Positions 55,428 to 59,666 of a stretch of 64,000 nucleotides of DNA are shown piece after piece (the stretch's first letter is position 1; each line of letters begins with the position of its first letter). Position numbers and translations under genes: made by a program. The DNA comes from Gracilinema caldarium DSM 7334. GTDB lineage: Bacteria > Spirochaetota > Spirochaetia > Treponematales > Breznakiellaceae. The stretch is taken from the NCBI RefSeq assembly GCF_000219725.1, contig NC_015732.1:2356001-2420000 (forward strand). The letters run 5' to 3'. The notes beneath the pieces were generated by a model. The model did no database searches and had not been told where the DNA came from. It worked only from the letters and a program-made list of their open reading frames with translations.

Positions 55428-56567
55428 TTGAAAGGGAGCGATGTCAATATTGAAGGGGTTTCCAAGTCCTTTGGTGACTTTAAAGCCCTCAAAGACGTAA
55501 GTCTTACTATAAAAAAAGGAGAGTTCTTTTCTCTCCTGGGTCCATCGGGTTGCGGAAAGACAACCCTGTTGCGGATTATCGCGGGGTTCGAAACCCCCGA
55601 TACAGGTTTGGTAACCTTTGACGGAGTCGATGTACTCCCGCTTCCACCGAATATGCGGCACGCGAACACGGTTTTCCAGAATTATGCCCTGTTCCCTCAT
55701 CTTTCCATATTCGAAAATGTAGCCTTCCCATTGCGGATAAAGAAGGTCCCAAACAGGGAAATTAAATATAAAGTCATGGATTACTTGAAGCTTGTAGAGC
55801 TGGAAAACCATGCCCATAAAAAACCTAGCCAGCTTTCAGGTGGTCAAAAACAGCGGGTTGCTATAGCAAGAGCACTGATCAATGAGCCTTCGGTACTGCT
55901 GCTTGATGAGCCTCTTTCAGCCCTGGATGCAAAGCTTCGGCAGCATATGCTTATCGAGCTGGATAAAATTCACGATAAAATCGGTATAACCTTTATCTAT
56001 GTTACCCACGATCAGCAGGAAGCCTTGTCTGTATCGGATCGTCTAGCGGTTATGTGTCAGGGTGATGTTCTGCAGGTTGGAACACCCCACGAAATTTATG
56101 AAAGCCCTGCCACAGACTTCGTGGCCCGATTCATCGGCGAAACAAACCTCTTCGATGGCACCGTAGTTTCTGTAGAACCGGTAGAACATCCAAAGGCCGC
56201 CCCAAACGAAACCATGGTTACCCTGGATATTCCCGAACTGGGACGCATTAAGGTTACCACCGTCGATACGGTAGCCCCGGGGATGAAGGTGAGTTTTACC
56301 ATCCGGCCAGAAAAAATTGCCATTTCGACAGAAAAGCCAAGTCTGAAGCGGAATGATATCAATCTTTTTGAAGGCATTGTGGACGAACCTATTTATTCAG
56401 GCTTCCAGACCAAATTTTATGTCCGCATTTCCGAACATGCCGTTCTTAAGGTAATGAAGCAGCATTCTAATTATTCCGATGAAGGGCCTGATATCATCTG
56501 GAAAGATTCGGTGTATATTTCCTGGAGTGCCGATGATGGCTACATAGTCGAGGTAAAACAATCGTGA
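55428..56567 (+). CDS. potA: spermidine/putrescine ABC transporter ATP-binding protein
   Basis: 379 residues. Walker A GPSGCGKTT, signature LSGGQKQRVA, Walker B VLLLDEPLSALD, then the D/H loops and a C-terminal TOBE domain (from about 245). The start is TTG at 55428-55430, with GAAGGA six bases upstream; an ATG at 55441 with its own good ribosome binding site is out of frame. Next gene overlaps by four bases (GTGA). Order potA-potB-potC-potD is the usual polyamine importer. Confidence 0.94.
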   Translation: MKGSDVNIEGVSKSFGDFKALKDVSLTIKKGEFFSLLGPSGCGKTTLLRIIAGFETPDTGLVTFDGVDVLPLPPNMRHANTVFQNYALFPHLSIFENVAFPLRIKKVPNREIKYKVMDYLKLVELENHAHKKPSQLSGGQKQRVAIARALINEPSVLLLDEPLSALDAKLRQHMLIELDKIHDKIGITFIYVTHDQQEALSVSDRLAVMCQGDVLQVGTPHEIYESPATDFVARFIGETNLFDGTVVSVEPVEHPKAAPNETMVTLDIPELGRIKVTTVDTVAPGMKVSFTIRPEKIAISTEKPSLKRNDINLFEGIVDEPIYSGFQTKFYVRISEHAVLKVMKQHSNYSDEGPDIIWKDSVYISWSADDGYIVEVKQS

Positions 56568-57514
56568 AACCGGCCCTTTCCAAACGGAATTATGGCCCCC
56601 TGTATGCAGGGCCAATAGCGCTCTGGTTTACCCTCTTTTTTGCAGCTCCGCTTATCATCATTGTTGCTTACAGCTTTATGAAAAAGGGGCTGTATGGTGG
56701 TGTAGAATATGAGTTTTCCCTCGCTGCCTATCATGCTCTGGCAAATCCGAATTTTGTTACCATTACCATTCGGACCTTGTTAACCTCCATTGTGGCAACC
56801 ATACTCACCATCCTGATCGCTTTGCCGTGCGGCTATTTCATGGCAAAAAGCAAAAACCAGACAATTTTGCTTCTTTTGGTTATTATTCCCTTTTGGACCA
56901 ATTTTCTTATCCGAGTCTACGCATGGATTGCCATTTTGGGGAATAATGGGTTTCTGAATGAATTACTGCAGCGTATAGGCTTGGTAAAAGACTATATACA
57001 ATTCCTCTATAACCAGGAAGCGGTAATTCTGGTTCTTGTATATATGTATCTGCCCTATGCCATACTGCCCCTCTTTTCTACAATTGATAAATTCGATTTT
57101 TCTCTGCTCGAGGCAGCCCGGGACCTGGGAGCAACCAAGTTCCAGTCCATGACTAAGGTGTTGCTTCCGAACATCCGCAGTGGTCTCTTTACAGCTGTTC
57201 TATTTACCTTTATCCCCATTTTCGGGGCCTATGCGGTACCTCTCCTTATAGGTGGTAAAGATTCCTATATGCTGGGGAATGTAATTGCAGACCAATTAAC
57301 CAAAACCAGGAACTGGCCTCTAGCTTCATCAATTTCAATGGTCATAACCGTCGTTACCACCGCGGGAGTCATGATCATGATGGCCTTACAAAAACGAGAA
57401 GCCCAGCGGCAAAAAGAGAACGAACTATCAGGCAGTATTACTACCATGGAGGAAATAGATTCAGCTGCAGGGATTCCTGCAGGAACTGGAACTGCTACAG
57501 GAGGTGCAAAATGA
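56564..57514 (+). CDS. potB: spermidine/putrescine ABC transporter permease
   Basis: 316 residues, six membrane segments and the EAA loop EAARDLGATKFQSMTKVLLP, typical of PotB. Start is GTG overlapping the potA stop (GTGA). The C-terminal 40 residues are a hydrophilic Ala/Thr/Gly-rich tail, longer than usual. Confidence 0.93.
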   Translation: MKPALSKRNYGPLYAGPIALWFTLFFAAPLIIIVAYSFMKKGLYGGVEYEFSLAAYHALANPNFVTITIRTLLTSIVATILTILIALPCGYFMAKSKNQTILLLLVIIPFWTNFLIRVYAWIAILGNNGFLNELLQRIGLVKDYIQFLYNQEAVILVLVYMYLPYAILPLFSTIDKFDFSLLEAARDLGATKFQSMTKVLLPNIRSGLFTAVLFTFIPIFGAYAVPLLIGGKDSYMLGNVIADQLTKTRNWPLASSISMVITVVTTAGVMIMMALQKREAQRQKENELSGSITTMEEIDSAAGIPAGTGTATGGAK

Positions 57515-58359
57515 GCGGTATTATTGCTTTCCGAAAAGGAACGCCTACTGGAGAAGCATCTCGACATGCACGCCGGGCTTACCGTAAACAGTTTTCGTTT
57601 TCCCAAACCATGTTTATAGCCACCATTGGGTTCCTCTTTCTTCCGCTCTTTGTACTTATCCTGTACTCCTTTAATGCCTCCAAGGGTATGGGATGGACCG
57701 GTTTTTCCCTGGTCTGGTACGAAAAGCTCTTCTTTAATTCCCAGGATCTCTGGAGGGCCTTTGGTAACAGTGCCATCATAGCCTTTGCATCTGCAGCGAC
57801 AGCAACGGTTATCGGGACCCTCGGTGCTATTGGGGTAAACTGGTATGAATTTAAATTAAAAAAATACATCCAGGGTATCACCTTCCTTCCGATGATCCTG
57901 CCGGAAATTATTATCGGCGTGTCCCTTCTGGTATTCTTTGCCGGTGTGGGACTTAAACTGGGGCTTTTTACCATCTATATCGCCCATACCACCTTTAACC
58001 TGCCCTTTGTATACCTGATGGTCATGGCCCGACTCGATGAATTTGACTACTCAATAATCGAAGCAGCCCATGACCTGGGGGCAAATGAACGGCAGACCCT
58101 GCTTAAGGTCATTGTCCCCATGAGTATGCCTGGTATCGTATCGGGCTTCCTCACCGCTATCACCCTTTCGCTGGAAGACTTTGTTATCACCTTCTTTGTG
58201 TCTGGCCCCGGATCGACGACCCTGCCCCTCTATGTCTATTCAGCAATTCGTTTTGGTGTATCCCCGGTTATTAATGCCCTTTCGGTAATCATGATTCTAG
58301 GAACAATGGTATTGGCCTTCTCACTGCGAAATTTCTTAAAATATATAGCTGCAAAATAG
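57511..58359 (+). CDS. potC: spermidine/putrescine ABC transporter permease
   Basis: 282 residues, six membrane segments, EAA loop EAAHDLGANERQTLLKVIVP. ATG overlaps the potB stop. A basic N-terminal stretch precedes the first helix. Partner of PotB. It is followed by a 242-base structured gap before potD. Confidence 0.94.
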   Translation: MSGIIAFRKGTPTGEASRHARRAYRKQFSFSQTMFIATIGFLFLPLFVLILYSFNASKGMGWTGFSLVWYEKLFFNSQDLWRAFGNSAIIAFASAATATVIGTLGAIGVNWYEFKLKKYIQGITFLPMILPEIIIGVSLLVFFAGVGLKLGLFTIYIAHTTFNLPFVYLMVMARLDEFDYSIIEAAHDLGANERQTLLKVIVPMSMPGIVSGFLTAITLSLEDFVITFFVSGPGSTTLPLYVYSAIRFGVSPVINALSVIMILGTMVLAFSLRNFLKYIAAK

Positions 58360-58362
58360 AGG

Positions 58363-58570
58363 GCACCTTACATAACGCTGTTAGTTATGAGAGGTGCTCA
58401 GTTGGTTACCATGCTCTGCCATTACAGGTAGAGCAGGGACTTCTGACAGGGGCGCCCTTCCTGGTACCCTGATACCGGGAGTATGGGTGACCGTGTATCC
58501 GGTGAGCACCTAAGGCCGGAATCCAGATATCCCGAAGCTGGAGCGGATGGCTGGATTCGGAGTTTCCAGC
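58363..58570 (+). ncRNA. structured leader RNA between potC and potD, possible riboswitch or attenuator
   Basis: The gap contains many strong helices. First: GCACCT (58363-58368) with AGGTGC (58392-58397), enclosing CATAAC/GTTATG. Alternative: AGGTGCTCA (58392-58400) pairs with TGAGCACCT (58503-58511), closing a multi-branch unit with GGTTACCAT/ATGGGTGACC (58404-58412 and 58483-58492), GCTCTGCC/GGTAGAGC (58413-58420, 58427-58434) and CCTGGTA/TACCGGG (58460-58466, 58473-58479). These two pairings are exclusive. Further down CCGGAATCCAG (58516-58526) with CTGGATTCGG (58551-58560) competes with GCTGGA/TCCAGC (58550-58555, 58565-58570), just ahead of the potD ribosome binding site. No known class was recognised; no ligand is shown. 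Confidence 0.6.
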
Positions 58571-58601
58571 GAAAATTCTATTTTTACAGGAGAGCAGTAA
58601 C

Positions 58602-59666
58602 ATGAAGAAATTTCACTGGTCTGTACTGGCGGCAGCCCTGATCTCTGGGCTTGTGGTATCAGGGTGCTCAAAATCCGAGAGCACCAAAGCAAGCGATGGG
58701 GGAAGCAAGAAACTCTACATTTATAATTGGACCTACTATACCCCCGATTCGGTCATTGAAAAATTCGAAAAAGAATTCAATGTAAAAGTGGTGTATGACT
58801 CTTTCGCATCAAACGAGGAAATGTTCGCCAAGCTTAAGGCCGGCGGCACCGGATATGACATCGTATTCCCATCAGGGGACTATGTTTCCATCATGAAGAA
58901 GGAGGGGATGCTCGCCAAGGTTGATAAAAGCAAACTTCAGAACCTGAGCAATATCGACCCGCTTGTCTTAAAAAAGGCGACCTATGACCCCGAGATGGAC
59001 TACAGCGTTCCCTACTATTTCGGTGCCGCCGGCATTGCCGTAAATACCGCTAAGGTGCCTAACTTTGAAAAGAGCTGGTCTATTTTCAGCCGCAAGGATC
59101 TGAAGGGTAAAATGACCATGCTCGACGATATGCGGGAAGTTATGGGTGATGCCCTGGCGTATATGGGCTATTCGGTAAACACAAAAGATCCAGAACAGAT
59201 TAAGAAGGCCCGGGATCTAATCAACAATGAGTGGAAACCCAATCTGGTCAAGTTTGATGCCGAAGCCTTTGGTAAGGGCTTTGCTGCCGGTGAATTCTGG
59301 GTTGTCCAAGGCTATGCTGAAGTGGTGTATGCGGAAATTCAGGAAGACCAGAAAAAGGATGTTGCCTTCTTCATTCCGAAAGAAGGTGGTCCAGCCTATA
59401 TCGACAGTATGTGTATCCTCAAGGATTCCAAAAACTACGACCTGGCCCTTAAGTTTATAGACTTTATCCATCGGCCTGAAATCTATGCTGAATTTTGCGA
59501 TACCTTCGGTTTCCCTGCTACCGCAAACATTCCCGCCCGTTCCCTGCAGAAGGTTACTCCCTATTACAAGGCTGAGGATCTAACCAATGTAGAACTGAAA
59601 GATGACTTGGGTGATACACTGGAGCTCTATAATCAGGCATGGCAAGATATTCGTGTAGGTGAATAG
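58602..59666 (+). CDS. potD: spermidine/putrescine-binding lipoprotein
   Basis: 354 residues. Signal LAAALISGLVVSGCSKSES with lipid Cys at about 23, then the PotD body: LYIYNWTYYTPDSVIEKFEK, YDIVFPSGDYV, YFGAAGIAVNTAKV, YAEVVYAEIQED. AGGAGAGCAG lies before the ATG. Binds polyamine outside the inner membrane and delivers it to PotB/PotC. Confidence 0.94.
   Translation: MKKFHWSVLAAALISGLVVSGCSKSESTKASDGGSKKLYIYNWTYYTPDSVIEKFEKEFNVKVVYDSFASNEEMFAKLKAGGTGYDIVFPSGDYVSIMKKEGMLAKVDKSKLQNLSNIDPLVLKKATYDPEMDYSVPYYFGAAGIAVNTAKVPNFEKSWSIFSRKDLKGKMTMLDDMREVMGDALAYMGYSVNTKDPEQIKKARDLINNEWKPNLVKFDAEAFGKGFAAGEFWVVQGYAEVVYAEIQEDQKKDVAFFIPKEGGPAYIDSMCILKDSKNYDLALKFIDFIHRPEIYAEFCDTFGFPATANIPARSLQKVTPYYKAEDLTNVELKDDLGDTLELYNQAWQDIRVGE

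Follow-up and report, generated by a model that had tools for sequence, protein, structure and literature searches.

What is encoded by the 242 nt that separate potC from potD in Gracilinema caldarium, and why do they stand ahead of the gene for the binding protein? The window analysed here comprised 64,000 nucleotides (G000:C1:2356001-2420000) of a genome of 3,239,340 bases. In it, potA (55428-56567), potB (56564-57514) and potC are followed by the gap and then by potD (Table 1), the gap lying where a sequence-only reading of this DNA had placed it. Among solved structures, the nearest relative of PotD was 2v84, a spermidine/putrescine ABC transporter periplasmic binding protein (E 2e-115). 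An unambiguous PotC was also found at 25 of the 30 potD loci read.

We consider it likely that the gap encodes a conserved, structured, cis-acting leader RNA of potD, which sets the level of PotD separately from that of PotABC. Such a leader would act on potD alone rather than on potABC and would set the dose of the binding protein through the 5' end of potD mRNA; its placement is one where the binding protein could be set against the permease. Neither promoter-like nor terminator-like sites were found within 58300-58660, nor was a Rho-independent attenuator (a GC-rich hairpin followed by a run of U). This fits a read-through message on which the leader would affect translation or stability.

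Table 1. Coordinates of the features of the potC-potD region in the window
Feature	Position	Strand	Basis
potC, permease gene, upstream neighbour of the leader	57511..58359	+	ORF
Probable potD leader RNA, entire potC-potD gap	58360..58601	+	fold z -4.76; single copy
5' hairpin specific to the window genome, source of the AGGTGCTCA partner	58361..58399	+	fold; absent from G011, G012 and G013; own genome without a strong second copy
P0, variable upstream hairpin; homologues have a differently sequenced hairpin nearby	58412..58435	+	folds
Conserved core, model R1, 94.2 bits	58444..58524	+	covariance model match
Core helices ACA/UGU, GG-CGCCC/GGGUG-CC, then apical hairpin	58446..58496	+	alignment, covariation
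Apical hairpin of the core, variable sequence, covarying	58458-58481	+	covariation
Second core hairpin UCCGGU/GCCGGA, invariant CAC in loop	58498..58520	+	alignment, covariation
3' hairpin S1; within the genus, two of its pairs show double compensatory changes	58519..58558	+	covariation
S1-loop segment GCUGGA (5' side of loop pairing S2)	58537..58542	+	complement test, covariation
UCCAGC, 3' side of S2, ending 31 nt before the potD AUG	58565..58570	+	complement in all six
Shine-Dalgarno AGGAG of potD	58588..58592	+	read in sequence
potD, polyamine-binding protein, presumed regulated gene	58602..59666	+	ORF; best solved relative 2v84

Conservation and distribution of the leader

BLAST found the leader in every one of the three congeners (E 7.8e-51, 1.9e-23 and 8.9e-21), each time between potC and potD. 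Two further carriers, G014 and G139, emerged from the 30 potD loci read, and the RNA was absent from the other 24. The sequence is thus kept in 3/3 congeners and in two further genera, the conservation on which the initial proposal of a leader RNA depended. In all, six genomes of three genera (four of one genus, G014 and G139) carried it, always in the potC-potD gap and with leader lengths of 218-338 nt, start codon counted. A profile HMM of the four same-genus sequences recovered G014 (E 1.6e-5) and G139 (E 9.2e-4); the 82 other gaps gave it no match.

With the variable hairpin excluded, the core was identical to that of the window at 62/67 positions in G012, 52/67 in G011, 52/67 in G013, 46/68 in G014, and 48/67 in G139. 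The corresponding identities at fourfold-degenerate sites of potC and potD were 0.467, 0.451, 0.471, 0.420, and 0.318. Binomial tails for the core against these sites ranged from 1.4e-15 to 1.7e-5 (G012, G011, G014 and G139; G013 left out), those of G014 and G139 being too generous because their alignments were picked for likeness, and that of G012 being barely affected. Judged by these identities, the leader is under strong purifying selection.

In a tree of PotC and PotD from 25 genomes, all six carriers grouped in a single eight-member clade (support 1.000), whose other two members, G010 and G145, had short gaps without the RNA. As read from this tree, the pattern of carriers fits vertical inheritance with one origin and one loss. 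Most of the family is without the RNA.

Searches with covariance model R1 gave six matches in 390 genomes of the order and two in 392 of the phylum, all already known and one copy each, under strict filters that could lose weak relatives. A DNA-pattern scan of an 84,980-species collection yielded 31 stretches. Four scored at least 63.7 bits with R1 and are the leader RNA; the remaining 27, which scored at most 28.2 or not at all, look like chance. Unfiltered R1 found no match better than E 2 in 100 more stretches upstream of potD, one of which (G048) was a genome already counted as L059; of the 130 loci covered, 92 had a potC end that the script could locate. One match on a viral contig lay inside a coding frame and was taken as chance, plasmids gave no match, and phages gave a single weak one of 28 bases. 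By these searches, the RNA is rare, and potD is the one gene with which it has so far been associated.

Comparison with Rfam (4,227 families) produced no match in the 64-kb window and none up to E 5 on 58300-58680. Among four homologue loci, the sole match within a leader was IsrM in L035, at 16.1 bits for a gathering threshold of 376 (E 0.79). With no match at or above the gathering threshold, the RNA fits no class in Rfam, and the sequence-only reading had likewise recognised none. As far as we found, it is nowhere described in print, most subscription journals lying outside the coverage of that search. PMC10319736 gives only one characterised riboswitch for the spirochaete phylum, that for thiamine pyrophosphate.

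Anatomy and covariation of the RNA

The recurring unit consists of the core, 81 nt in length, and the 3' hairpin. Across the six carriers, the core can form ACA/UGU, an internal loop made of invariant G residues, and GG-CRCCC/GGGYG-CC. Its 5' half begins CAGGGGC, and its 3' half reads CCGUGNAUCCGG NNNN CAC NNNNN RCYGG in all six. The apical hairpin differs in both length and sequence, the loop of the second hairpin keeps CAC, and the invariant unpaired bases are GG, G, A, and CAC. A helix that closes the core in the minimum-energy fold of the window (GGGA..UCUG with CAGA..UCCC) was, by eye, not retained in G011 or G013 and was set aside.

The minimum free energy of the gap was -100.5 kcal/mol, as opposed to -76.55 +/- 5.03 for 200 shuffles (z -4.76), and no shuffle was as low; the three same-genus homologues had z values of -3.32, -2.92, and -3.13. 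A family-wide survey covered 92 potC-potD gaps, the start being found in 88 and 77 being scored. Well-folded gaps were common (z < -2 in 44/77, z < -3 in 22), and energy alone is therefore little proof. By z, the gap of the window ranked second of the 77 and that of G139 was unremarkable (-1.37). Minimum-energy folds differed among the six carriers, and the predicted probability of the outer S1 pairs spanned 0.05-0.99.

A structured RNA had been expected to covary among related gaps, and the pairs do covary. Aligning all six sequences gave double changes at 3 of 20 predicted pairs. Within the genus, the figure was 4 of 39, located in the apical hairpin and S1, a count that comes from four same-genus rows, which are few and whose kinship inflates such numbers. 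The within-genus covariation score was 0.179 versus 0.129 in shuffles (4/500 reached it) and 0.013-0.068 when slid, and 96.8% of cells were paired versus 29-52% when slid. MAFFT misaligned the 3' domain of G014, and that alignment was kept out of the counts; for G014 and G139, the strands of S1 and S2 were placed manually. The covariation is modest because there are just three to four independent lineages. Compensatory changes nonetheless support the predicted apical hairpin and 3' hairpin S1.

In the predicted pairing S2, the S1 loop GCUGGA (UCCUGGA in G014) can pair with the nearby downstream segment UCCAGC (UCCAGGA), with one compensatory change in G014 and none within the genus, where S2 is invariant. 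When the downstream segment was shuffled, the length of the Watson-Crick match gave p of 0.026 in the window, 0.030 in G012, 0.003 in G011, 0.005 in G013, and 0.005 in G014, the first four being mutually non-independent; the value in G139, 0.41, was at chance level. Once G-U pairs were allowed, these values weakened to 0.03-0.30. The distance from the end of the S2 segment to the potD AUG was 31, 31, 33, 33, 33, and 34 nt in the six carriers.

The sequence-only reading had proposed two sets of mutually exclusive helices, and they fared differently. In the first, AGGTGCTCA (58392) was to pair either with GCACCT (58363) or with TGAGCACCT (58503). All three segments sit at those positions, and the switch itself was rejected. 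The 9-bp pairing AGGTGCTCA/TGAGCACCT had an ensemble probability of 0.0002, forcing it cost about 8 kcal/mol, and a 9-nt complement at least 50 nt apart occurred in 4.6% of 2,000 shuffles. It exists in the window genome only: upstream sequence in the five homologues offers that loop a complement of 4-6 nt at best, and the 5' hairpin that supplies the partner (58361-58399) is absent from G011, G012, and G013. The second set, GCTGGA with TCCAGC against the helix GAATCCAG/CTGGATTC, does exist and is conserved as S2. It is near the ribosome binding site, as had been said, without overlapping it, ending 17 nt before the Shine-Dalgarno sequence.

Ways in which the leader could work

If the leader sets PotD dose, it would do so at the 5' end of potD mRNA, acting there as a switch or as a tuner. 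S2 would be one alternative, and pairing of its UCC-bearing strand to the Shine-Dalgarno sequence the other: with S2 formed, the ribosome site would be free, and with S2 open, the UCC-bearing strand could cover it. By eye, the S2 strand UUUCC(AGC) can pair with the Shine-Dalgarno GGAGA over 4-5 bp in the genus, and as CCUCC/GGAGG in G139; short pairings such as UUUCC/GGAGA readily arise by chance. A search of the whole leader for a stronger conserved anti-Shine-Dalgarno partner was significant in G139 only (p 0.0025 versus 0.07-0.54 in the other five), and that candidate was dropped. Given this, and how readily short pairings arise, the mechanism is one that we infer. S2 itself stays near the ribosome binding site in all six carriers, and the window has no terminator-like site there (58300-58660). 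The G139 complement, found in G139 only, extends over 10 nt of the Shine-Dalgarno region (CCTACCCTCT with GGAGGGTAGG, p 0.0025) and lies in an upstream hairpin.

A stability element, a riboswitch, and a protein site are overlapping ways in which a selected cis-acting potD leader could work. It is quite possible, if short of probable, that a cut within the gap divides the potABCD message and that the folded leader protects the potD half, giving PotD in excess over the membrane subunits with no sensing involved. The location between the permease and binding-protein genes would suit such processing, as would the generally well-folded gaps of the family (z < -2 in 44/77 scored). There is also a precedent: PMC4423207 reports that stem-loops govern subunit ratios in the cip-cel operon of clostridia. 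These, like the potD leader, form a folded gap between genes whose products belong to one complex and may be required in unequal amounts. The potD leader differs from those in having a conserved multi-helix core and a loop pairing ahead of the downstream start; a plain barrier needs neither invariant unpaired bases (GG, G, A, CAC) nor a loop pairing at a fixed distance.

Those same features would suit a ligand-binding riboswitch, for a polyamine or another ligand, in which the core is the putative aptamer and S1/S2 the expression platform; we regard this as somewhat less probable, and doubtful. As in riboswitches, a conserved structured domain lies upstream of a gene, here one for a polyamine transporter component, and the order of conserved core with invariant unpaired bases, variable hairpins, and then alternative 3' pairings is in accord with one. 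Spermidine riboswitches exist; according to PMC10853860, those known are SAM-I variants upstream of biosynthesis genes. Both they and the potD leader are structured leaders linked to polyamine genes. In the same text, the spermidine riboswitch has the four stems of SAM-I, acts on biosynthesis genes, and terminates transcription, whereas the potD leader has no terminator-like site and no match to the SAM-I family in the window, including at E up to 5 on 58300-58680, a search that a strongly altered variant could escape. Against a riboswitch also stand the position inside an operon ahead of the last gene only, the narrow distribution, the single gene context, and the lack of an Rfam relative. 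The more specific proposal of an undescribed riboswitch class, which senses a polyamine or related metabolite and adjusts the binding protein only, within the operon, through a loop-to-leader pseudoknot whose spacing from the potD start is fixed, appears unlikely. Should a ligand be found, the leader would be a new sensor, with which one could test why binding proteins have their own control.

Two other polyamine-linked RNAs bear comparison. The speF leader (RF00518) is likewise the leader of a polyamine gene; it did not match the window RNA, and its sole sub-threshold match was to a different RNA in locus L135 (16.9 bits, gathering threshold 37). PMC10319736 describes spermidine-linked 5' fragments within the coding sequence of Borrelia burgdorferi potB. 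That system, compared here by description rather than by sequence, shares with the potD leader a spirochaete potABCD operon and, if the leader acts as proposed, control after transcription start, which in Borrelia is reported to respond to spermidine. It differs in lying inside the potA-potB coding region and in yielding truncated transcripts.

That the gap is a binding site for a regulatory protein is still less likely; the conserved internal loop and single gene target would suit this, but there is no candidate protein. A translated upstream or antisense ORF in place of an RNA is very improbable. A 40-codon ORF (58483-58605) overlaps the potD start and one of 65 codons runs on the minus strand (58406-58603), but neither matches Pfam, and at the site of the former both G011 and G013 lack one base and have no ATG; the two ORFs were rejected on the Pfam result and the broken frame. 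The stop codon of the 40-codon ORF overlaps the potD start as ATGA, and, by eye, this ORF is open in G012 too. An extragenic repeat or mobile element, for which only the long hairpins speak, can be dismissed: the leader sequence, which an early concern had been might recur as a repeat, has one full copy and one R1 match in the genome, and it occupies the identical site in three genera in a pattern that fits vertical inheritance.

RNAs at other potD loci

In the sister genus g12 (L040, L042, L050, L052, L056, L061, L099, L112, and L135), the potC-potD gap holds a different conserved RNA, laid out as GCCGUUUCCG, a hairpin, CGAUACGG, a second hairpin, and then, in most loci, a hairpin before the Shine-Dalgarno sequence. 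RNAalifold showed double changes at 4 of 17 pairs, and no Rfam family matched this RNA at threshold. Its model, R2, had strong matches in g12 only (9 of 390 genomes, none with E above 7e-16). That a sister genus has its own conserved RNA at this site suggests that RNA control of potD arose more than once.

The carrier G014 also has a molybdenum-cofactor riboswitch (RF01055, 78.2 bits, L036:3441-3617) about 0.9 kb downstream of potD; RF01055 had no match in the 64-kb window. Elsewhere, a hairpin of the type UGUUGAA...UUCAACA was seen by eye directly before the potD Shine-Dalgarno sequence in L041, L046, L104, L137, L140, L146, L152, L160, and L166, hinting at a wider control or protection of the 5' end of potD.
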